Below, piece after piece: positions 1 through 10,042 of a stretch of 10,042 nt of DNA. Both the position numbers and the translations under genes were made by a program. This DNA is from Candidatus Poribacteria bacterium. GTDB taxonomy: Bacteria > Poribacteria > DTPJ01 > WJIO01. The notes under the pieces were generated by a model. That model had not been told where the DNA came from, searched no databases, and saw nothing but the letters and a program-made list of their open reading frames with translations. Positions within the stretch are counted from its first letter, which is position 1. Every line of letters begins with the position of its first letter. Location: the NCBI GenBank assembly GCA_014730235.1, contig WJIO01000312.1, positions 1 through 10,042 of the forward strand, written 5' to 3'.

Positions 1-123
1 GCCGAACAGGTTATCCACCGGATCAGCTTCACTTCCGACCTGTATGTCAACCCAGAAGGCTTCACCGGGGTCATGTAAGGGATCGGCTATGATAGACAGT
101 CCGTTGGACGAAGATACCACAGC
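1..123 (-). other. Domain: start of a second cohesin-like module (cut by window edge)
   Basis: Residues 2394 onward: LDAVVSSSNGLSIIADP, then EAFWVDIQVGSEADPVDNL. This mirrors the opening of the first cohesin-like domain (NEFWVDIKVGNESDPVTDM) with about the same spacing, so a second copy begins here and continues past the left edge. Confidence 0.6.
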
Positions 124-3100
124 ATCCAGCATCATATCAGGCGATGAATCATGGGTCTGATGCCAGTTGATACCGATAGGCAGGACATCGGCCTGGTCCA
201 CCTGACCGCTTCCGTTGGCGTCGGCATAGGCAGCGTTGACCGGATCCCACATATCCACATAGTGACATTCCCAGCTCATGGACTGAGGTTCACGGGCAGG
301 GCCTGTGGTGTGCCAGTTAAGTCCCAGAGGTAACACGTCAGCCTGGTTGACTATACCGTCGTTGTTGGTGTCACCAGGATATACACATATGCCGCAGCAT
401 ACATAAACTTCGACATTTCCTGAGCCCAGGTTTATAGGGCTTCCGTCAGACTTGGTAGCTGCTATTTCTGTAAGACTAAGGATACTTTTCTGATTGCATA
501 AAGCCAGATCGTTGAATTTTATAGTTATTCTTGCCACTGTTCCATATCCGGTTGCACTTTTTCCATCTATTCTGGTAATACCTATACTTACTTTTCCAGA
601 TGGATCATCTTTTATTACAAAGGGAAGAATATCAGAACCGAGAAAACCGTCTTTCAATACCACAGCATCCACCAGGTCGACTATGCCTGTATTAGAATAA
701 TTGAATACAAAAGACAGGCCAGACATATCTGTTACAGGGTCAGATTCATTACCTACTTTTATATCCACCCAAAATTCATTTTGTGGACATTGAGGAGATT
801 CGACTACAGGATATATAGATACTGCCGATCCGTCCTTTCCTGTTCCCTGTAAAGCTACATCCAATGGATTCTTTTCGGTAACATTGTTGGTTAGAGTAAG
901 AGTAGCAGATTTATTACCTGTAGCTGATGGCATGAAGCGTACCACAATATTATGGGTATTACCAGATCCCAGATTGAAGATACTACCACCGCTCTGGATG
1001 CTGAAATTTGTATTTCCTGTAAGATTAATATCCGTTACACTTAATAATGCATCCCCTGGGTTAGATACAATAAATGTTTTATCAACATAGTTTCCTACGC
1101 TAACATCCCCATAGTTCCAGCTTGTTGGATTCACTGCTATATCCGGGTTGGCTCCAGGGTTGTAAAAAGTTTCTGTTGAATATTCAGAAATTAATACATT
1201 ACCTATGGCCGAATCATCTTTCTTATCGAATATTTTTTCCAGGTTAAAGACACCATCTTTTATCTGGGTGTTAGTAGGCTCTCCCCAATAGTTGTTATTA
1301 GCAATAACATCATGTTCCGAGACATTCTCCAATTCAAAATCTGTGTTGTCAAATATATCATTTCCAGATATATTAACGGAATTGCGAGTTTGTACCCCAA
1401 CCTTATTGAGTGATATTTTATTGCCAATAAACTGTGTTGTTGCTTCCAAAGATATACCATTATCCGCGTTATTTGTAATACTGCAATCTTTTATCAGAAC
1501 CGTATCGCTATTAATTCCATCCCCATTGTTATCCGCTATTTCGCAGTTGTATACATTCGCAGTTTTATTGCCTGTACCTTTACTGCTCATCAATATTCCT
1601 GTTTTATCATTATTTTTTATTGTGCAGTTGCTAACCTGTGCATTCAAATCAACCGGAGCATCTTTTTGAAATAGTACGATAATGCCTGTTCCCCCATTAT
1701 CTGTTAAAAGGCAATCATCTATGGACAGATTAGATATTTTCGATTCTAACACCAATCCATGAGAGTTGTTATCGTTGATACTGCATCCACTGATATTGAC
1801 ATTGGTTGTTCCGTGGTTATACAGGTATACACCTGCTTTATCGTTGTTTAATACATTAGAATCTGTTAGAGTGAGATTAATTACATTTTCTCCATAATGA
1901 TAACCATACAGGCCTTTATCACCGTTCATTGTAAAATCACATCTCTGGAAACTGGCGTTTTCTCCAAAAAGCAGACCATATTTAGTGTTATACTTGAACT
2001 CGCAGTCTGCAAATTCGCAAAAGTCTTTTAACTTTACACCAAATTCTTCATTGTTTTTAAAAGAGCAATGAGAAATCACGTTTGCTATGGGATTATCTGT
2101 CAGCAATCCCCGCTTTCCGTATTCTTCATTACAGTATTCAAGAGAAATGCTTCCTTTATCAAATCTTATTCCGTACCAATCCCCCTTATTTTTATTAGGA
2201 TTTTCCTGGATTGATGTAAAGGTAATAACATTTCCATCTTCCCCTATGGCTGAAAGCTGTCCACCGTCAACAATAAGTTCTATCAGACTTTCATCCATTC
2301 CGCCTGCCTGATCGTCGGTTGTGGCAACTTTTACTATAGTTCCTGGTTGAATATTTACATTGCCACCGCTTGCTATTATCACATCCCCTGTAAGGATTAC
2401 TTCATCTGACCATGTTTCAGGACTATTAATAATTCCCGATTTAGTTACACCTTCATTAAACAACTTGAGTTTCTTCATTGTCTCTGGATTTTTACCATAT
2501 GCTATGGCATGGCTTCCCCAGCCTATCCATCCACCCTGTCCGGTTGCATCGGTGTCGCTGTCGTCTACTATAATAGCAAAGGCTATCTCCATTCCTGAAG
2601 TGAATCCGGCAGCAGTATCACTCAACATCTCTTTTGTAAATTTCCATTCATAGAAGGTTTGATTTGTGCCTTCATCTCTTCGCATTTGGCTATCAACATC
2701 TATAACTTCATATGTATATTTAATGGTAGAATAAGTCTCTTCATGCCACCCATCTTTTATACTGAAATTATACATGCGCGTAGTACCGTTAGGCATTCCT
2801 GGTGGTATTTCACCGGCTGTAACGTCAATCATAACTTGGATACCGTCATTTTCCCAGGGCCAGGGTTTTGTGCTTTCTGCAACATATTCATCATCCTTAA
2901 CGCATAAAGCAAAATACAGGTTATCCTTGTCATATCGAATTTTCAGCTTTGCACTTAGATCGTCTTCACCTTCCCATGCACCACCAAGCGATTCCCATGA
3001 ACTAACGCTTAGGGGTAATATGTCCTGAGAAAAATCCCAGTCGCCTAACTGGGAGTCTATGACTATTTGTTGACCGTTGAGATGATTGACTGTATATTCC

Positions 3101-6100
3101 GACGGAATATTTACTGGTATTACTGTAACAATTATAGTATCATCATCACTCGCTCCGGCTGTGTCTGTTCCTGTGAATGTTATATTCTCACTCCCACTCC
3201 AGCCAGCCTTCGCTGTGAAAGTAACCACATGAGTATTGGGATTTATTGACACAAAAATATTCGTATTACCGCTATACGTCCAATTTATTTCAGCATCAGT
3301 ATTGTCGGGATCATTCACGTAGTCGTCCAGATCAATGCTGTTATCAGATTCACCTTCAAAGAAATCCACATCGGGAATATTGCTGACAACAGGAGGACTT
3401 TGGGGATATGTAAAGACTTCTACAGAATAGTCACTTTCTTTGTCTCCTACATAATATGCAGTTAATGCTGCATAATATGTAACGCCATTGGTTAGACCTG
3501 TTAATTGGTAACTGGTGTTATTTCCAACGTCAATTGAAAAATCATAACTTCGTGTAGAAGTTCCATAGTGTACCTTATACCCCAAAAGATCCGGATCATC
3601 AATAGGTGACCAGGTTAGATCAATAACTGTATCACCTGATACAGCAGTTAATCCACCAGGTACTTCTTTCGGTTCTTCAATGTGAATTGTCAAAGCCCCG
3701 GTTATAGAGCTAACGACAACATCTGTAGCATGGGTTTCACCTTCTTTTATCGTTTTTGTAAAGCTTTGTGAGGATATCTGGGTATCATCCCTATATCCTT
3801 CAATGGTTAAAGTGTATCCACCGTCCCCTGTGCCTACCAACTCAATCGTATAAGCACCAGCCTCAAGCTGTGCCGAATTGATAATATGTCTTCCATACGG
3901 ATCTACTTTTAATGCGACTCCTGGTATCTCTGACTCAATCTCTCCTGTATCATAATTCTTACCTACATGCCGTCCCTGGGGATCATAAAAATGAAGGTCG
4001 GCATTGGAAGCAAGTATAATAGAAACCCATGACTTAGCTACAGGGGGAAGTGTTTTGGTTTCCAGCGATAATAATGCGTAGGCAGTAACCAGGGGATTTT
4101 GACCTTCTCGCCCACCTGAAGGGTTTGTCCAGTAACCGTCCTGATGTTGCTTGTTGGCCAATTCGGTTGATAGTTCTTCAAACCAATTATGTCCGTCAAG
4201 CTGAATTTGACCTGTCATAGCCAGGGCTTTAGCCATTGTGATATAATAGTAATATAGATCAGTATTACCACAGGTAGGTGGGTGGTCTGTTACGGTATAA
4301 TTATCTTTTGCCCAATCTAAAGCTGCCTGTATTCTTGTATCCGCAACGTTAAGCCCGGTAAGTAACATGCTCCAGATTCCGGCATAGGTCATACTACCGT
4401 ATGATGTATAGGTTGATGCACAAACGGCACTACCACTGGGTGTATAGACAAATCCACCGTCTTCTCCGTTCCACGATTGATCATTGGTACTATGATTTTG
4501 ACATCTCTCTAGAAATTTTACAGCTTTGGCAGTCCAGGTATTTGGATCAGCAGGATCAGGTTTTTGTTCTTGCAGATAGGAATAGGCTGCATCCAGACCC
4601 ATTAAAGCCCATTGAGTATTGGAGAGGTCTGCAACACCATAAGGTGCAGGTTCATAACTCCATCCACCATAATATTCGTCTTCACTATCAATAGCATTTA
4701 TGTTTGACCCTGGGGTTTGGATAGTTGATAGAAATCTCTCGGCACGCGATTTACTAGTTGTATTTTCAGGAATAGCATTTTGGATGTCTGTGATTAATTC
4801 ATCAACATTCATAGTTATACTGCTGAGTGTATTTGTTTCTATGTTTTGATTTCCCAAAAGAAAATTTCTGGCATTTTCTATTTCATTATAATACTTTGGT
4901 GGATTATTTGTTTGATCAGCAGCTACCAGTGTCAGTATACCAATAGCCGTACAGTAGGTTGCTCGTGAAGAACTATCGTAGATCCCACCGTTAAGCTGGA
5001 CACGGGCAAGTATATAATCCATAGCTTCTCTTATATCCGGTGTTCCATCATTATCGGAGTCAATACTATCACTCTCATTTACACCATAATTAAAAAAGGC
5101 TAAGGTTGCTAATTGAGTAATTCCCAATATATAGTCTGACTGTGTTCCCCATGAACCATTAGCATTCTGCTGGCTTCTAAGCCATGCTAATCCTTTTGCG
5201 ATTACACCGCTTGCAGTATTAAATGATTCTGTTTCTGACCAAGGGCCTGAATGGCCGGCATAATCTTTCGCCTTAACCCGCCAGTAATAGGAGGTGCTAG
5301 GCTGCAATGGTATGTAAAATATATTACCAGCAACTTGATGTTCCTGAGGGGAGTTAAATTGGTCTGTCGTATCTATCTGGACAATATACATCGTACCGCT
5401 TGCTATTTTCTGATTAAGGGATGACATATTCTTGTCTTCCACTATATCCCAGCCTAAATAAACTATCTCACCATTGATAGATGATGTGAGATTTGATGGC
5501 TTGTCTTCAGGCGCGTCAGGATCATTTATCCCATGATTGCTAAATATCTCCCATAATTGGGTTCTACTTTGGGGGTATTCAAAATATAGATCCTCATACA
5601 GTTCTTTTGTTGTGTAAGGTTGTCCATCCATCATTATATGCGATACTGTCGTACCACCAAATAGTAGATGATCATTATCAGCCTCATTTTGTCCATCATG
5701 AATATCCCATAAAATACCGACTATTGACCATTCATCCTTGCGTCCGACATCAGTATTTGTGTTTATCTCAATATCTTTCGAGCCAGGGGATACCGCTGGC
5801 CAGTCAAAAGATGTATCGCTGATATCATTAGAATAATTGGCAGCTATTGCGAAATAACTTGCCCAGCCCTCACTTATTGCGTCGGCACTACAATCATTTT
5901 TAACTCCATCATGATTTATACATTTGCTACAGTTATTAGGACATTCACCAGCATGCCCACTTGTATGCCTTCTCGTCATATGATTGTCGTATTTCTCATA
6001 CATTAAAGTGTGTCCGAATTCATGCAAGATCACATCACTAGGTAATGTCGCCCATCCTGTATGAAATGTGATCTTGTTGCCACTTGCCCATGCTTTATAG

Positions 6101-7302
6101 CCTTTTGGATCTGGGTGGTGTATTTGTACCGTAACCTTATCTTCCTTACCGCTATATGCAAAACCACGACGCACTTCACGAAAAACACATGCAGCTTCTC
6201 TCTGGATAGCGCTATCGAATTCTATATCCATTGCATAGGTTTGCTGATTATCTGGCTTAAAAGTTTCTGCGGGTATTCTGGCACTAATTAAAGGATGCGA
6301 CTCTATACTTCCATCTCTTACATCCACTTGTTCATCGTCAAGATAAGCCTCGCAGTAGAGATCAGCATTATTCCCTGGTATAATTCCATCCCAAATCCTT
6401 ACTGACTGTGGATCAGTTTCATTATATCTTCCCAGGTTATCAGTTCTGCCTTCCCAGAAAGTTTCCGTTGGAAGAGGACTATCATCATCAAGGATTTTTA
6501 CCTCTACATTATTCAATGGTTCATCACTTACAGCGCGACCATCTGTACTACCGCTTACTAAACCGTGAATGTAGCAGTAACCATCGGGAACTTGTTCAAC
6601 AAGATTATCCCAGTCTGATATAACAATTCCTGTTATTGCATCAATTAGAGAATCTTTGTAGATCGGCTCTCCTGTTTTCACCCACCAAACCAGCTTGTTT
6701 GGCGCCATAATATAAAGTTCCGGTTCCTCCAGAAAGTCAATATTAGGTTCACCATAGTTATTCCTTGCTGTTTGTTTCACATCATCCACTGAAAGTGCAG
6801 GGGATATTGGGGCTGTAATATTGGTATACCAGATATGCTTCAGCCGGTAAATTTCTGCATATTTTGTCATTGCTACCAGGCCAAAAGAATCGAAAACAGG
6901 TATATCGTTATAAACCTGATGGAATCTCACGATCATGCTGTAATCTCTATCAGCATATCCAGGCTCGGTATAATGATATTCCTTTACCGCATCAACAGCA
7001 ATATCAGAAACATTGGCAATACCAAGTTCTTCCTTTAGACGCAAAAGAAACTCATAAGCAACATCCGCAGCAGAACTTGCAGAGCTAACAGCAGTATATG
7101 ATCCTGGAGCGCGTTTTGGGTATGCTCTACCTAAACTACTAACAAGTCCTGTTGACGAATTGATATGATACATTTCCCATTTTATACCAGTTTTTTCTTC
7201 GACCCCTTGTACTACCACTGGAGCGGTATTAGCGAAGGTAGCAACAGTAATAAACATAAAGACCACTGTTATTAAAATCCATATATTAAATTTAGTTCCC
7301 AA
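1..7302 (-). CDS. Giant secreted multidomain zinc metallopeptidase with toroid, CBM9-like, beta-helix, cohesin-like and dockerin-like modules (C-terminus beyond left edge)
   Basis: I translated the minus strand from 7302 to 1 by hand: 2434 codons, no stop, still open at the window edge. The start is TTG at 7302, six bases after a perfect AGGAGG, and it leads straight into a signal peptide (charged GTKFN, hydrophobic ILITVVFMFITVATFA, likely cleavage after Ala24). The product should therefore be exported. The catalytic core has HEFGH at residues 427-431 and a SEGWASYF glutamate at 478, the pattern of gluzincin zinc peptidases preceded by an FTP/PepSY-like propeptide (about 70-230). From about 597 to the end there are at least ten non-catalytic modules, listed as separate entries. 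They point to binding of carbohydrate or cell-surface material and to calcium-dependent assembly. Known from families: the individual folds. Inferred: a cell-surface or extracellular degradative or adhesive role. The substrate cannot be read. The gene has no partner in an obvious operon, because mobile DNA lies directly upstream. Confidence 0.93.
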   Translation of the reverse strand, partial: MGTKFNIWILITVVFMFITVATFANTAPVVVQGVEEKTGIKWEMYHINSSTGLVSSLGRAYPKRAPGSYTAVSSASSAADVAYEFLLRLKEELGIANVSDIAVDAVKEYHYTEPGYADRDYSMIVRFHQVYNDIPVFDSFGLVAMTKYAEIYRLKHIWYTNITAPISPALSVDDVKQTARNNYGEPNIDFLEEPELYIMAPNKLVWWVKTGEPIYKDSLIDAITGIVISDWDNLVEQVPDGYCYIHGLVSGSTDGRAVSDEPLNNVEVKILDDDSPLPTETFWEGRTDNLGRYNETDPQSVRIWDGIIPGNNADLYCEAYLDDEQVDVRDGSIESHPLISARIPAETFKPDNQQTYAMDIEFDSAIQREAACVFREVRRGFAYSGKEDKVTVQIHHPDPKGYKAWASGNKITFHTGWATLPSDVILHEFGHTLMYEKYDNHMTRRHTSGHAGECPNNCSKCINHDGVKNDCSADAISEGWASYFAIAANYSNDISDTSFDWPAVSPGSKDIEINTNTDVGRKDEWSIVGILWDIHDGQNEADNDHLLFGGTTVSHIMMDGQPYTTKELYEDLYFEYPQSRTQLWEIFSNHGINDPDAPEDKPSNLTSSINGEIVYLGWDIVEDKNMSSLNQKIASGTMYIVQIDTTDQFNSPQEHQVAGNIFYIPLQPSTSYYWRVKAKDYAGHSGPWSETESFNTASGVIAKGLAWLRSQQNANGSWGTQSDYILGITQLATLAFFNYGVNESDSIDSDNDGTPDIREAMDYILARVQLNGGIYDSSSRATYCTAIGILTLVAADQTNNPPKYYNEIENARNFLLGNQNIETNTLSSITMNVDELITDIQNAIPENTTSKSRAERFLSTIQTPGSNINAIDSEDEYYGGWSYEPAPYGVADLSNTQWALMGLDAAYSYLQEQKPDPADPNTWTAKAVKFLERCQNHSTNDQSWNGEDGGFVYTPSGSAVCASTYTSYGSMTYAGIWSMLLTGLNVADTRIQAALDWAKDNYTVTDHPPTCGNTDLYYYYITMAKALAMTGQIQLDGHNWFEELSTELANKQHQDGYWTNPSGGREGQNPLVTAYALLSLETKTLPPVAKSWVSIILASNADLHFYDPQGRHVGKNYDTGEIESEIPGVALKVDPYGRHIINSAQLEAGAYTIELVGTGDGGYTLTIEGYRDDTQISSQSFTKTIKEGETHATDVVVSSITGALTIHIEEPKEVPGGLTAVSGDTVIDLTWSPIDDPDLLGYKVHYGTSTRSYDFSIDVGNNTSYQLTGLTNGVTYYAALTAYYVGDKESDYSVEVFTYPQSPPVVSNIPDVDFFEGESDNSIDLDDYVNDPDNTDAEINWTYSGNTNIFVSINPNTHVVTFTAKAGWSGSENITFTGTDTAGASDDDTIIVTVIPVNIPSEYTVNHLNGQQIVIDSQLGDWDFSQDILPLSVSSWESLGGAWEGEDDLSAKLKIRYDKDNLYFALCVKDDEYVAESTKPWPWENDGIQVMIDVTAGEIPPGMPNGTTRMYNFSIKDGWHEETYSTIKYTYEVIDVDSQMRRDEGTNQTFYEWKFTKEMLSDTAAGFTSGMEIAFAIIVDDSDTDATGQGGWIGWGSHAIAYGKNPETMKKLKLFNEGVTKSGIINSPETWSDEVILTGDVIIASGGNVNIQPGTIVKVATTDDQAGGMDESLIELIVDGGQLSAIGEDGNVITFTSIQENPNKNKGDWYGIRFDKGSISLEYCNEEYGKRGLLTDNPIANVISHCSFKNNEEFGVKLKDFCEFADCEFKYNTKYGLLFGENASFQRCDFTMNGDKGLYGYHYGENVINLTLTDSNVLNNDKAGVYLYNHGTTNVNISGCSINDNNSHGLVLESKISNLSIDDCLLTDNGGTGIIVLFQKDAPVDLNAQVSNCTIKNNDKTGILMSSKGTGNKTANVYNCEIADNNGDGINSDTVLIKDCSITNNADNGISLEATTQFIGNKISLNKVGVQTRNSVNISGNDIFDNTDFELENVSEHDVIANNNYWGEPTNTQIKDGVFNLEKIFDKKDDSAIGNVLISEYSTETFYNPGANPDIAVNPTSWNYGDVSVGNYVDKTFIVSNPGDALLSVTDINLTGNTNFSIQSGGSIFNLGSGNTHNIVVRFMPSATGNKSATLTLTNNVTEKNPLDVALQGTGKDGSAVSIYPVVESPQCPQNEFWVDIKVGNESDPVTDMSGLSFVFNYSNTGIVDLVDAVVLKDGFLGSDILPFVIKDDPSGKVSIGITRIDGKSATGYGTVARITIKFNDLALCNQKSILSLTEIAATKSDGSPINLGSGNVEVYVCCGICVYPGDTNNDGIVNQADVLPLGLNWHTTGPAREPQSMSWECHYVDMWDPVNAAYADANGSGQVDQADVLPIGINWHQTHDSSPDMMLDAVVSSSNGLSIIADPLHDPGEAFWVDIQVGSEADPVDNLFG
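135..390 (-). other. Domain: paired dockerin-like calcium-binding loops
   Basis: There are two loops. The first is DTNNDGIVNQAD (residues 2311-2322), with oxygen ligands at positions 1, 3, 5 and 12. The second is DANGSGQVDQAD (2361-2372), with Ser at position 5. Each is followed by the same helix, VLPLGLNWHTT or VLPIGINWHQT. The spacing between loops is 50 residues, longer than classical type I dockerins, with SMSWECHYVDMWDPVNAAY between them. A cysteine-rich lead (VCCGICVYPG) comes first. I call it dockerin-like; cohesin binding is not shown. Confidence 0.75.
420..824 (-). other. Domain: cohesin-like beta-sandwich, first copy
   Basis: Residues about 2160-2295 follow the cohesin pattern: NEFWVDIKVGNESDPVTDMS, then LSFVFNYSNTGIVDLVDAV, KVSIGITRIDGKSATGYG and TVARITIKF, ending in LSLTEIAA. 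In true cellulosomal cohesins this fold binds dockerins. Outside cellulosomes many cohesin-like domains have no known partner. It lies directly upstream in the chain of dockerin-like loops, so both halves of such a pair are present in one protein. Confidence 0.65.
825..1155 (-). other. Domain: ASH / choice-of-anchor-D-like immunoglobulin module
   Basis: Residues about 2050-2160 read as the familiar pattern: PDIAVNPTSWNYGDVSVG, then KTFIVSNPGDALLSVTDI, LTGNTNFSI, HNIVVRFMPSATGNKSATL and LDVALQGTG. Both the 'F.P...G...A.L.' core and the 'V.L.GTG' end are present. It is a beta-sandwich spacer frequent near the C-termini of exported proteins in FCB-group and related bacteria. Confidence 0.8.
1245..2454 (-). 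other. Domain: right-handed parallel beta-helix (NosD/PbH1-like repeats)
   Basis: Residues about 1617-2020. It starts with the usual cap (WSDEVILTGDVIIASGGNV, NIQPGTIVKV), then many 20-25-residue turns with recurring 'N-x-x-x-G-I/L' and 'I-x-x-C-x-I' positions, for example CSINDNNSHGLVLES and CSITNNADNGISLEA. It ends in NNNYWGEPTN, the typical exit motif of NosD/PL6-like helices. Such domains are found in polysaccharide lyases, adhesins and surface proteins. No lyase active-site set is evident. Confidence 0.85.
2460..3105 (-). other. Domain: CBM9-like carbohydrate-binding module
   Basis: Residues about 1400-1615. It begins with IVIDSQLGDWDFSQDI, the 'd G.i..W' entry typical of CBM family 9 modules. 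KLKIRYDKDNLYFALCVKDD follows, then PWPWENDGIQVMIDV, the most characteristic CBM9 segment (W-x-x-D-x-v-e/q). It closes with YEWKFTKEML and GWIGWGSHAIAYG. Known members bind xylan, cellulose reducing ends or other sugars. The ligand here cannot be told from sequence. Confidence 0.75.
3115..4049 (-). other. Domains: beta module, second FN3 module and cadherin-like Ig module
   Basis: Three beta modules follow the toroid. Residues about 1086-1205 (DLHFYDPQGRHVGKNYDTG, then AYTIELVGTGDGGYTLTIEG) look like a bacterial prepeptidase/jelly-roll-type linker. Residues about 1208-1298 are a clear FN3 (PGGLTAVSGDTVIDLTWSP, GYKVHYGTSTRSYDF, LTNGVTYYAALTAYY). Residues about 1300-1396 are cadherin-like (SNIPDVDFFEGESDNSIDL, DLDDYVNDPDN, FTGTDTAGASDDDTIIVTV), a fold that usually binds calcium between repeats. 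All are common spacers in surface proteins. Confidence 0.65.
4050..5211 (-). other. Domain: squalene-cyclase/prenyltransferase-like alpha/alpha toroid
   Basis: Residues about 698-1085 carry the repeating helix-turn motifs of the prenyltransferase/squalene-oxidase repeat superfamily: AWLRSQQNANGSWG, LARVQLNGGIYD, YYGGWSYEP with TQWALMGLDAAY, NGEDGGFVYTPSG, YGSMTYAGIWSMLLTGL, LANKQHQDGYW and LVTAYALLSLE. The segment YGSMTYAG...LYYYYITMAKAL matches my recollection of the stand-alone planctomycete/acidobacterial secreted members. I see no DxDD cyclase motif and no GCGEQ thioester motif, so terpene cyclisation or macroglobulin-type coupling is not supported. A binding or scaffold role is the inference. 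Confidence 0.75.
5220..5514 (-). other. Domain: first fibronectin type III-like module
   Basis: Residues about 597-695. It shows the FN3 pattern: a proline-rich entry (APEDKPSNLTSS), a core tryptophan strand (VYLGWDIVED), then the terminal PSTSYYWRVKAKDYAGHSG with the usual tyrosine corner, ending in WSETESFNT. In extracellular enzymes this type of module is a spacer between catalytic and binding domains. Here it links the peptidase to the toroid. Confidence 0.7.
5530..6290 (-). other. Domain: zinc metallopeptidase catalytic core (HEFGH...E)
   Basis: Residues about 338-591. HEFGH (427-431, bases 6010-6024) supplies two zinc histidines and the general-base glutamate. Glu478 in AISEGWASYF, 46 residues after the second histidine, is the expected third ligand. 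The preceding strand NKITFHTGW resembles the edge strand of this fold, and WSIVGILWDIHDG lies in the helical C-terminal lobe. A cysteine cluster (454, 458, 461, 471) sits between the ligands. The core is compact compared with thermolysin (M4) and does not give a clear M4 or M36 signature, so I leave the MEROPS family open. Confidence 0.8.
6610..7100 (-). other. Domain: FTP/PepSY-like propeptide of the metallopeptidase
   Basis: Residues about 70-230 have the layout of fungalysin/thermolysin propeptides. There is an N-terminal helix (ADVAYEFLLRLKEELGI), then a strand pair typical of FTP (YSMIVRFHQVYNDIPVFDS), then a PepSY-like half with SVDDVKQTARNNYG, KLVWWVKT and DAITGIVIS. In this family the propeptide acts as an intramolecular chaperone and inhibitor that is removed on maturation. 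The assignment rests on pattern recognition, without a profile search. Confidence 0.7.
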
Positions 7303-7308
7303 TTTTAT

Positions 7309-7314
7309 CCTCCT
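7309..7314 (-). promoter_or_regulatory. Ribosome binding site AGGAGG of the giant metallopeptidase gene
   Basis: AGGAGG on the minus strand, six bases (ATAAAA) before the TTG codon at 7302. It decides the start: no ATG nearby has a comparable site, and translation from this TTG gives a clean signal peptide. The two 5' bases (7313-7314) also belong to the CTTAG duplication flanking the MITE-like element, so the site straddles the insertion boundary. Confidence 0.85.
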
Positions 7315-7317
7315 TAG
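7313..7317. repeat. Target site duplication CTTAG, left copy
   Basis: CTTAG next to the left end of the MITE-like element. It matches the copy at 7518-7522. On the minus strand it reads CTAAG and its last two bases (AG) form the 5' part of the AGGAGG site. Confidence 0.8.
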
Positions 7318-7517
7318 CCTGTTTTCAACACCTTTGAAAATACTATTGAAGGATCCAGTGTTCATGCGCCTTCCGGGCTGTATGAGATCTCTGCATCAGA
7401 TACGAGGAAGTCGCTGAAATAAAAACGTAAATTCAGAGGAAATACACAAATCTGCGTCATTACTGCTTTCCTCACGTCTTTGTCGTGAATAGAAAATTGA
7501 GGGGTGTTGAAAACAGG
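7318..7517. mobile_element. 200-bp MITE-like element with 15-bp terminal inverted repeats
   Basis: The ends are CCTGTTTTCAACACC (7318-7332) and its exact reverse complement (7503-7517). CTTAG stands directly outside both ends (7313-7317 and 7518-7522), a convincing 5-bp target duplication. The element is too small for a transposase. Its only open frame is a 32-codon minus-strand ATG frame (7460-7362) of no recognisable product. The 7517 end resembles the end of the larger element at 9909 for about 34 bases, 28 of them identical, so it is probably mobilised by that element's transposase. It sits between the giant gene's ribosome binding site and anything that was once its promoter. Confidence 0.85.
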
Positions 7518-7522
7518 CTTAG
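7518..7522. repeat. Target site duplication CTTAG, right copy
   Basis: CTTAG directly after the right terminal repeat of the MITE-like element, identical to 7313-7317. Confidence 0.8.
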
Positions 7523-7609: not shown

Positions 7610-7995
7610 TGAGGTGGCCCGATTTTTTTGGACACAAAAAGGGCAACCTTAAGCTGGATTTTTATGTGAAATTATAATTTTTTCCTCCTTTGGGACCAGT
7701 ATTGTGACTCAAACTCAGCGGGTGTCATATAACCCAACGATGAATGAATCCGCTCATGATTGTAGAACACATCAAGAAAATAACACAGATTTGCATAAGC
7801 ATCAGCAAAATCAGCATATTCCTTTATCCATACCTCCTCATCTTTCAGATGACCTATGACACTCTCTGCAAATGGATTTTCCCATGCCTTTCCCTTACCT
7901 GCCATGCTTATCCTGGTATCCAGTTTCAGAAGTCTTGAGGTATAACCATTGGCTTTATACTGGGTTCCCTGATCCGAATGATGGATGTAAGGAAC
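7610..7995 (-). mobile_element. Truncated IS3-family insertion sequence (3' part only)
   Basis: The left boundary TGAGGTGGCCCG followed by TTTTTTTGGACAC has the TG start and TTGGACA core seen in IS3-family termini. Next to it, inside, is the C-terminal third of a DDE transposase on the minus strand. The opposite end, the orfA region and the first two thirds of orfB are absent. The sequence changes to the vWA gene near 7990-8003. It is a dead relic, neither complete nor capable of transposing alone. Confidence 0.8.
7672..7995 (-). pseudogene. IS3-family transposase OrfB, C-terminal fragment
   Basis: The frame reads VPYIHHSDQGTQY, then ISMAGKGKAWENPFAESVIG and finally NHERIHSSLGYMTPAEFES, stopping at 7672. 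These are the second half of an rve-type DDE integrase. The middle Asp (base 7974) and the Glu of FAES are separated by exactly 35 residues, the DD(35)E spacing of IS3 transposases. The first catalytic Asp and the N-terminal HTH are missing. About 107 residues remain of the roughly 270-300 usual for OrfB. An ATG at 7905 opens the frame but lies inside the catalytic domain, so it is not a genuine start. Confidence 0.9.
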
Positions 7996-9725
7996 ATGCG
8001 TTGTTCCATTACTTCTGATACTGTTGTTATAGCATCTGAATTGTATAGATCAACAATAGGTTCTCTTGCATCCCAACCAATATGCACATCCGTAATATGA
8101 ATAAAGGTGAAATCGGAAAAGACACTAATAGAATGTGGGTAATCTGCTGTACCATCATAGTTAGCTACTCCGAGATCGTCCTGAGCGAAGATATAATATT
8201 CTAGTCCATCAAATGTTACATAATTATCAGGAATTTCTGCCTTATATACCGAGTCCAAAATCATATCTACAGATTGATAAAGCAATTGGCCTGTCTTTCT
8301 GTAAAACAGCTTTAATATATCTAGCTGATTCGTATTGTCTAATATATCAGCAGAAATCAGAACAGTCTTTCCTGCTTGCGCTGTAGTAACTGGTATGTGT
8401 GTAATCTGTGGTGCTACATTAGGCAATATAGCCAGTTGATGAGGTTTATTTTGATGTATCATAGATGGATTGGATGCTGTACTTTGCCCATCGGAAGCTG
8501 TAATGTAATAATCAACTCCTGGAGAATTTACACTGCTACCAGCAATTGTGCCCGACCATAAATTGCCTGAAAAGCTATTCATACTTAAAGCTTGATAGTC
8601 TGAAGCCGATGTATTTTTATGATAAAGAGTGGCTCTCTGGGTATATGGTGAGACATCATCATTTATCTCCACTTCTATTGTAAAATCTGTACCAGCACCC
8701 CATAATTGATTATGCAAGTCTAATGTTTGCTGTGTCCGTTGTATTCGAGGTTCTGCACCTGGAATGTAAGATCCCTGTGCGCTGGATTGATATCCCTGAT
8801 AATCTATAGCAACTTCTACATTCCTCAAAGTTCCGTTAAATATAGGATTGCTTGATTTATAACGGATCAGATAAGTGCTGGTTACTCCTGATGAGATATA
8901 GTTGAGAATCTCATCGAATGAACTATAAATATCAAAATACTGACCATTAGTTTGCTCCGATATAACCCCATAATCAGAAACAGCATATTCATCGTTTAAA
9001 TTTATTAGCGAAAAGGTTGTAATTGAATTTGACTGTAAAATAGATATTGTTTCATTTTGATTATAATCACCAATATTGTTATAACCTGTGGGAGTTTCAT
9101 CAGTTATTAAAATAAAAATTTTCTGAGAACCTGTACGAAAATTAAATTGGCTTGCCGAATTATACAAAGCATCCCATCCAACTTCTTTTCCAGCTTGGTT
9201 TAAAGTATTTCTGTTCCAGACATCATTCTTAAAGTAATCCGCATCCGGAGTTAGAGTCCCATTATCTTCAATGATAGCAGGATATCCAAAGCGGCATAGA
9301 CCTAAAGCAAAATCAACACCTTTTAGTTTTAAGCTGTCGACAAAATCAATAACATTATTTCTTACATCATTTTGCTCATCTCTCATACTTCCACTATTAT
9401 CCATTAAGAAAACTATATCGGTTAAGCGCGAACCCCCGCTAGTTCCAGGTGGAGAAACCTCAAAATATTCAGTTTGTAATGTTCCGTTCTCATAAACTCT
9501 GAAATTCGATTGTTCTAAATCTGTAACCTCTTGACCAGACATATCTACACTAGAGTTCATATAAATAAAGGGAAAATTCTGAGGATTGAGACTGGTTATA
9601 TTGGTATTCAAGTCTGTTGATTCCGAATCCAGTATACTCATTCCTGCTTCTTCCTGGGTATAACCCATAGATACAAATAATAGTAATAAAAATGTTATTA
9701 AAGTTAATAGTCTTCTAATAAGCAT
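7926..9725 (-). CDS. Secreted von Willebrand factor A protein, truncated within a C-terminal calcineurin-like phosphoesterase domain
   Basis: 599 residues from ATG at 9725, chosen over the in-frame TTG at 9785 because it begins a proper signal peptide (MLIRRLLTLITFLLLLFVSM, cleavage near GYTQ) behind GGGGG five bases upstream. Residues 50-90 resemble the strand that precedes acidobacterial-type vWA domains (VTDLEQSNFRVYENG). The vWA domain spans about 103-285 and has the MIDAS sequence DNSGSM (109-114) and ITDE (207-210). Two Ig/FN3-like stretches follow (about 325-535). At 538-550 FTFIHITDVHIG gives the first DxH metal motif of calcineurin-like phosphoesterases. Shortly after VSEVMEQ the frame enters the IS3 relic, and the last ~23 residues are out-of-frame insertion sequence. 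The remaining phosphoesterase motifs (GDxxD, GNHE, histidines) are missing, so that activity must be lost. The vWA part could still fold and be secreted. Confidence 0.85.
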   Translation of the reverse strand: MLIRRLLTLITFLLLLFVSMGYTQEEAGMSILDSESTDLNTNITSLNPQNFPFIYMNSSVDMSGQEVTDLEQSNFRVYENGTLQTEYFEVSPPGTSGGSRLTDIVFLMDNSGSMRDEQNDVRNNVIDFVDSLKLKGVDFALGLCRFGYPAIIEDNGTLTPDADYFKNDVWNRNTLNQAGKEVGWDALYNSASQFNFRTGSQKIFILITDETPTGYNNIGDYNQNETISILQSNSITTFSLINLNDEYAVSDYGVISEQTNGQYFDIYSSFDEILNYISSGVTSTYLIRYKSSNPIFNGTLRNVEVAIDYQGYQSSAQGSYIPGAEPRIQRTQQTLDLHNQLWGAGTDFTIEVEINDDVSPYTQRATLYHKNTSASDYQALSMNSFSGNLWSGTIAGSSVNSPGVDYYITASDGQSTASNPSMIHQNKPHQLAILPNVAPQITHIPVTTAQAGKTVLISADILDNTNQLDILKLFYRKTGQLLYQSVDMILDSVYKAEIPDNYVTFDGLEYYIFAQDDLGVANYDGTADYPHSISVFSDFTFIHITDVHIGWDAREPIVDLYNSDAITTVSEVMEQRMFLTSIIRIREPSIKPMVIPQDF

Positions 9726-9730
9726 ACTTA

Positions 9731-9735
9731 CCCCC
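9731..9735 (-). promoter_or_regulatory. Probable ribosome binding site (GGGGG) of the vWA gene
   Basis: GGGGG on the minus strand, five bases before ATG 9725. It is weaker than the canonical site of the giant gene. A GAGGAG lies further upstream, only two bases before a TTG at 9785; that spacing is too tight and the product would carry a 20-residue extension before the signal peptide. The downstream start is preferred. Confidence 0.5.
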
Positions 9736-9903
9736 AAATTACAATGGTTTGCCAGATATGAGATGCCAAAAACAATCGTAAACAATACTCCTCACTTATA
9801 TAGACACCTAAAAGAAATAATATGTGACAAAAAAAGATATTTTACTTAATTTATGCGCCTTTTTTATAAACATAGTTGAAACTGGCTGAAGCCCATAGTA
9901 ATA
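9736..9903 (-). other. Upstream region of the vWA gene
   Basis: About 170 AT-rich bases without a gene. A minus-strand TTGTCA (9822-9827) and a downstream TATATAAG are promoter-like but are about 22 bases apart, longer than a normal sigma-70 spacer. No clear promoter or hairpin terminator can be assigned. Confidence 0.35.
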
Positions 9904-9908
9904 CTAAG
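9904..9908. repeat. Putative target site duplication CTAAG of the right-edge element
   Basis: CTAAG directly outside the terminal repeat that starts at 9909. It has the same CTWAG form as the duplication around the MITE-like element. The matching copy would lie beyond the right edge. Confidence 0.55.
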
Positions 9909-10042
9909 CCTGTTTTCAACACCCCTTTAAATCCTATTCAAGTTTTACAGGTTCCAGATAAACATCAGGATGTAGCAAACCCAAAACCTGAATTAAGTCA
10001 TTCTGAAACTGGGTTAAAGGCGCAATCTGCTTCCAGCAACTA
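9909..10042 (-). mobile_element. Insertion sequence, one end and transposase 3' end (continues past right edge)
   Basis: It opens with CCTGTTTTCAACACCCC, which shares its first 15 bases with both ends of the 200-bp MITE-like element. A transposase-like reading frame ends 25 bases inside this terminus, as expected for a compact insertion sequence. The family cannot be named from 134 bases. A 5-bp CTWAG target and CCTG-starting ends are the clues for a search. Confidence 0.7.
9934..10041 (-). CDS. C-terminal end of a transposase (partial)
   Basis: The frame is open from the right edge and ends at TAG (9934-9936). It reads SCWKQIAPLTQFQNDLIQVL, then GLLHPDVYLEPVKLE. 35 residues are too few to name a family. 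Its identification as a transposase rests on position: the last gene before an insertion-sequence terminus. It could be an accessory gene of the element instead. Confidence 0.55.
   Translation of the reverse strand, partial: SCWKQIAPLTQFQNDLIQVLGLLHPDVYLEPVKLE

Follow-up and report, generated by a model that had tools for sequence, protein, structure and literature searches.

The locus described here raises the question of what a single exported chain might do that joins a zinc peptidase to an alpha/alpha toroid, CBM9, a beta-helix and cohesin/dockerin modules, and of whether this order of modules is intact and novel. The window, that is the whole stretch of DNA analysed (10,042 nucleotides), is the complete contig C252 of a Candidatus Poribacteria genome of 5.53 Mb in 451 contigs, the sole member of its genus and family among the genomes compared.

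On the minus strand a single frame runs free of stop codons from base 7365 (ATG) or base 7302 (TTG) to base 1, comprising 2434 codons when counted from the TTG. We regard the TTG (7300-7302) as the better start, because the Shine-Dalgarno sequence AAGGAGG lies 7-8 nt upstream and a signal peptide follows, and the ATG at 7365 was dropped as it belongs to an inverted repeat at the end of a mobile element. The first-pass annotation had chosen the same start and had read an uninterrupted frame of at least 2434 residues with a signal peptide; both points hold, no frameshift being seen in the window frame. The contig stops inside the gene, and the C-terminus was recovered from contig C40: 127 nt of it are identical to the end of the window, and beyond this overlap the open frame runs on to a stop at C40:11009. 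The missing part thus very probably lies on C40, and the complete chain would have about 2715 residues. From the N- to the C-terminus the modules follow one another in this order:

7231..7302, minus strand: TTG start and signal peptide, residues 1-24 (hydrophobic stretch ILITVVFMFITVATFA, judged by eye)
6589..7230, minus strand: probable FTP/PepSY-type propeptide, residues 25-238 (sub-threshold Pfam FTP, weak BLASTP, position)
6268..6588, minus strand: transthyretin/CarboxypepD_reg-like domain, residues 239-345 (matches of relatives, weak Foldseek rows)
5509..6267, minus strand: zinc peptidase core, residues 346-598 (HEFGH at 427-431, E478 in SEGW, fold comparison)
5212..5508, minus strand: fn3/Ig-like domain, residues 599-697 (Ig_Rha78A_N, 3.8e-6)
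4048..5211, minus strand: alpha/alpha toroid of squalene-cyclase type, residues 698-1085 (profile against 2sqc, SQHop_cyclase_C)
3661..4047, minus strand: uncurated beta-rich module with an LHxYDxxGRH motif, residues 1086-1214 (kept with the toroid in L072, L073, L074 and L110)
3400..3660, minus strand: fn3, residues 1215-1301 (Pfam fn3, 1.1e-7; same place after the beta module in L110)
3103..3399, minus strand: cadherin/Big-like domain, residues 1302-1400 (tand_rpt_95 8.2e-5 and Big_9 0.0017, both below cut-off; tandem paralogs are present in contig C297)
2452..3102, minus strand: CBM9-like domain, residues 1401-1617 (Pfam CBM9_1, 3.5e-9, above cut-off)
1153..2451, minus strand: right-handed beta-helix, residues 1618-2050 (Pfam Beta_helix, 4.1e-23, and 4.2e-25 with four stretches, above cut-off)
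829..1152, minus strand: choice-of-anchor-D/ASH Ig domain, residues 2051-2158 (NCBIfam choice_anch_D, 7e-14)
385..828, minus strand: cohesin 1, residues 2159-2306 (profile against 2xdh, Pfam Cohesin in relatives)
148..384, minus strand: dockerin with two Ca-loop repeats and a long spacer, residues 2307-2385 (Dockerin_1, 5.3e-5)
1..147, minus strand: start of cohesin 2, the rest of which, followed by two GWNLI domains, is on C40 (127-nt overlap, open frame)

The modules and the order in which the first-pass annotation had placed them are borne out by Pfam, NCBIfam, profile and fold searches.

In the remaining DNA of the window a repeat of about 37 nt, ending in GTGTTGAAAACAGGCTTAG, is present in inverted copies (7313-7351, 7486-7522 and 9904-9942), and further copies sit close to contig ends, at a distance of about 100 nt, in C451, C225 (at either end), C76, C407 and C259. 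Being located near so many contig ends, the repeat probably marks the end of an insertion element present in many copies, at which the assembly is interrupted. A gene encoding a VWA-domain protein (7926-9785 and 7672-7980, minus strand) is truncated: its frame passes, in a different register, into a fragment of an rve-type (integrase core) transposase that represents the 3' end.

The zinc-site signature of the peptidase consists of H427, E428 and H431 (HEFGH) and of E478 (SEGW), with HE.GH and EG invariant in an alignment of 14 sequences from several phyla, and so has the HExxH motif and downstream Glu that mark the MA(E) thermolysin-fold metallopeptidases. In an AlphaFold model of moderate confidence (mean pLDDT 53.5, confident in the core alone) the core matches thermolysin with a Z of 16.7 over 247 residues (rmsd 3.8) and M36 with a Z of 14.6-14.8, the next class, M1, reaching only about 10.6; Foldseek retrieved vibriolysin (1.2e-5). 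The HEFGH...E peptidase core recognised at first pass is therefore upheld by invariant residues and by a thermolysin-like predicted fold. A residue corresponding to His231 of thermolysin was not found. None of the Pfam peptidase families claims residues 346-598, and Pfam M4 and M36 gave no match for the window protein (E up to 10) or for 14 relatives (E up to 1).

Thermolysin (M4) and fungalysin (M36), both of the MA(E) clan, share with this peptidase the predicted fold, HExxH with a downstream Glu, EGW and a probable FTP-type propeptide, whereas identity in the structural alignments is about 8-13% and the window peptidase has a transthyretin-like domain in front and a four-Cys insertion. The four cysteines (454, 458, 461 and 471; window 5890-5943) are placed between HEFGH and the third ligand, and possibly form a second metal site; the relative L085 has a Cys-rich insertion as well. 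Residues 25-238 are a probable FTP/PepSY-type propeptide, as suggested by a Pfam FTP match below cut-off (E=0.047) and by one BLASTP comparison (E=0.013) with the FTP+PepSY region of L084. For the region that follows, relatives match TTR-52 and CarboxypepD_reg, and transthyretin rows appear in Foldseek at weak E-values.

Relatives of the peptidase range from Streptomyces to archaea, several having a transthyretin-like domain before the core. The uncurated HE.GH...EGW secreted peptidases of Poribacteria, Streptomyces, Nitrospira, Micrarchaeota and Odinarchaeota (L086-L098, L082, L085) have the transthyretin-like domain and the same core, but, unlike the window protein, show no BLASTP match to its toroid, CBM9, beta-helix and cohesin regions. 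Among the other genomes of the phylum that were compared no close relative was found, those of G073 (L087) and G055 (L094) being distant and without the toroid.

A profile of the toroid built from eight relatives matched squalene-hopene cyclase 2sqc with E=3.6e-22, and SQHop_cyclase_C was matched by all eight. The DxDD motif of class II cyclases is absent from the window toroid, NCBIfam cyclase scores fall far under their cut-offs, and the CGEQ thioester motif of the alpha-macroglobulin TED is absent from the window toroid and from all 14 homologs checked; without these two motifs, cyclase or thioester chemistry of the toroid is unlikely. Almost every genome of the phylum encodes secreted toroid proteins of about 370-450 aa, which have common motifs with the window toroid and are 32-41% identical to it. 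Most of them are standalone, whereas the window toroid forms part of a longer chain together with the beta module and fn3, and no functional clue was gained from the standalone forms.

The beta module belongs to no curated family, and its best match in a profile search of the PDB was not significant (E 0.26); a single-sequence AlphaFold model of toroid and beta module was unusable (pLDDT 38.5). The module is rare (8 of the 386 genomes searched), and it occurs together with the toroid in two genomes of this phylum, G016 and G074, and in two other lineages, represented by G140 (L074) and G219 (L110). In L074 an M14 carboxypeptidase lies ahead of the same toroid and beta module, and in L110, a frame of 1902 residues, a GH18 domain lies ahead of toroid, beta module and fn3 (38% identity over 541 aligned columns). 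A C39-like peptidase had been guessed from the sequence of L110; it is unsupported by Pfam, which gives GH18. Both proteins differ from the window protein: their catalytic domains are unrelated to its peptidase, neither CBM9 nor a beta-helix is matched, and the C-terminal tail is of Por type. These fusions hint that the toroid works extracellularly beside degradative enzymes. We are tempted to suggest, though only tentatively, that toroid and beta module (with fn3) could be a portable cassette, so far undescribed, that serves extracellular hydrolases as an accessory unit; it would have moved between phyla, joined unrelated catalytic domains (thermolysin-like, M14, GH18) and have a conserved ligand- or substrate-handling function of its own.

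In the C-terminal tail, cohesin 1 alone remains under the Pfam level, although the profile of its family matches the PDB cohesin 2xdh (5.1e-5) and Pfam Cohesin is found in six of the eight family members (best 2.2e-13); cohesins 1 and 2 of the window protein are 43% identical. The dockerin, when searched as an isolated segment, scored 23.8 bits against the Dockerin_1 cut-off of 22.9. Cohesin and dockerin modules are shared with cellulosome systems, which differ in that here both are on one peptidase chain, the dockerin has a long spacer between its repeats and no scaffoldin was identified. A frame of 2610 residues in G016 has choice-of-anchor-D, cohesin, dockerin and cohesin in the same order as the window tail, and the cohesin-dockerin-cohesin part of an 839-residue frame of the same genome aligns with it. 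Both G016 frames end in an FNPETWIPF tag. In the recovered C-terminus of the window chain this tag, and with it a Por/T9SS-type signal, is absent and a duplicated GWNLI domain stands in its place.

The GWNLI domain (L122, C40:11012-11500) is about 80 residues long, is duplicated, has no match in Pfam or NCBIfam and stands at the end of many large proteins of this genome. Seventeen further matches were found in the genome (L123-L139), mostly 0-13 residues before the stop codon. Possibly it is a C-terminal domain for sorting or attachment that has escaped recognition and that is employed alongside the FNPETWIPF tag.

Considering the chain as a whole, we think it probable that it is a secreted, zymogen-type degrader of glycoprotein or polysaccharide-protein material, either part of an assembly or held at the cell surface. 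The signal peptide would export the chain, and the FTP-like propeptide would probably fold the peptidase and block it until cut off. The thermolysin-fold peptidase would then cut protein, with His427, His431 and Glu478 as predicted ligands and Glu428 as base, while CBM9, the beta-helix, the toroid/beta-module unit and fn3 would grip or dock on a substrate that is particulate or rich in carbohydrate. Through its cohesin/dockerin/cohesin tail the chain could contact similar tails on sister proteins in a calcium-dependent manner, and the GWNLI domain would serve as the attachment or sorting end used in this genome. This reading is drawn from the intact frame, the invariant zinc residues, the thermolysin/M36 fold, CBM9 and beta-helix matches above cut-off and the supported cohesin and dockerin, as well as from the tail conserved in G016, the presence of GWNLI at many protein ends and the association of the toroid unit with secreted hydrolases elsewhere. 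Counted against it are the sub-threshold FTP match, the low mean pLDDT of the model, the failure to find a His231 equivalent and the uninformative standalone toroids.

Rather unlikely, in our judgement, is that the chain is chiefly an adhesin or structural surface protein in which the beta-modules do the work and the peptidase merely matures the chain or its neighbours. Binding or structural modules do make up most of the chain, and its C-terminal domain is common to several large proteins of the genome (frames of about 1200-2400 aa); against this, no zinc-site residue is lost, and in other proteins the toroid unit goes with enzymes (M14, GH18), which fits a degrader. That the toroid itself is catalytic, like a polysaccharide lyase or a cyclase, making the protein a bifunctional enzyme, seems improbable. 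The toroid profile also matches the pectate lyases 1gxm/1gxo at about 3e-5, Pec_lyase is found in two of the eight members and the motifs DGGFxY and SYxSMT are strongly conserved, but the window toroid has neither DxDD nor CGEQ, and the likeness to lyases may reflect the fold only.

It would be most surprising if the gene were an assembly chimera or a recent fusion not expressed as a single chain. Such an origin would agree with the end of the contig inside the gene, with the mobile-element end that adjoins the Shine-Dalgarno sequence, and with a jump in GC3 at about codon 2300 (window ~400, at the start of the dockerin) from 0.12-0.38 to 0.5-0.7, the high-GC3 stretch covering window ~1-400 and C40:11009-11981; in the other GWNLI-ending proteins of the genome, unlike in this one, composition matches that of their own upstream part. 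On the other hand the frame is unbroken throughout, the order across the break is kept in the two proteins of G016, an independent genome, and no repeat covering the break was found elsewhere in the genome. An assembly join at window ~400, to which the GC3 jump might point, was for these reasons judged unlikely, and with the module order conserved elsewhere it is more likely that recombination replaced the tail than that the assembly is in error.

The surface degrader, which the first-pass annotation had proposed beside an adhesin, remains the best-supported reading, the zinc-site residues being intact and the toroid unit accompanying secreted hydrolases in other lineages. The same annotation did not recognise the architecture, and this stands for the full combination, which is absent from the 84 genomes examined in the phylum and from all further genomes that were searched; nothing was found in viral contigs scanned with the peptidase and the toroid or in the plasmids searched, nor was an account of the full architecture found in open-access papers. 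The parts are less unusual, with pairwise precedents in M14 plus toroid (L074), GH18 plus toroid (L110) and an FTP/PepSY metallopeptidase plus beta-helix (L084), and with the tail in G016. As judged from sequence comparison, the full order appears new within the genomes searched, yet built of recurring cassettes, so that its novelty would lie in the combination alone. What the protein points to is an uncurated, widespread family of thermolysin-fold peptidases and a toroid cassette carried on secreted hydrolases of distant lineages.
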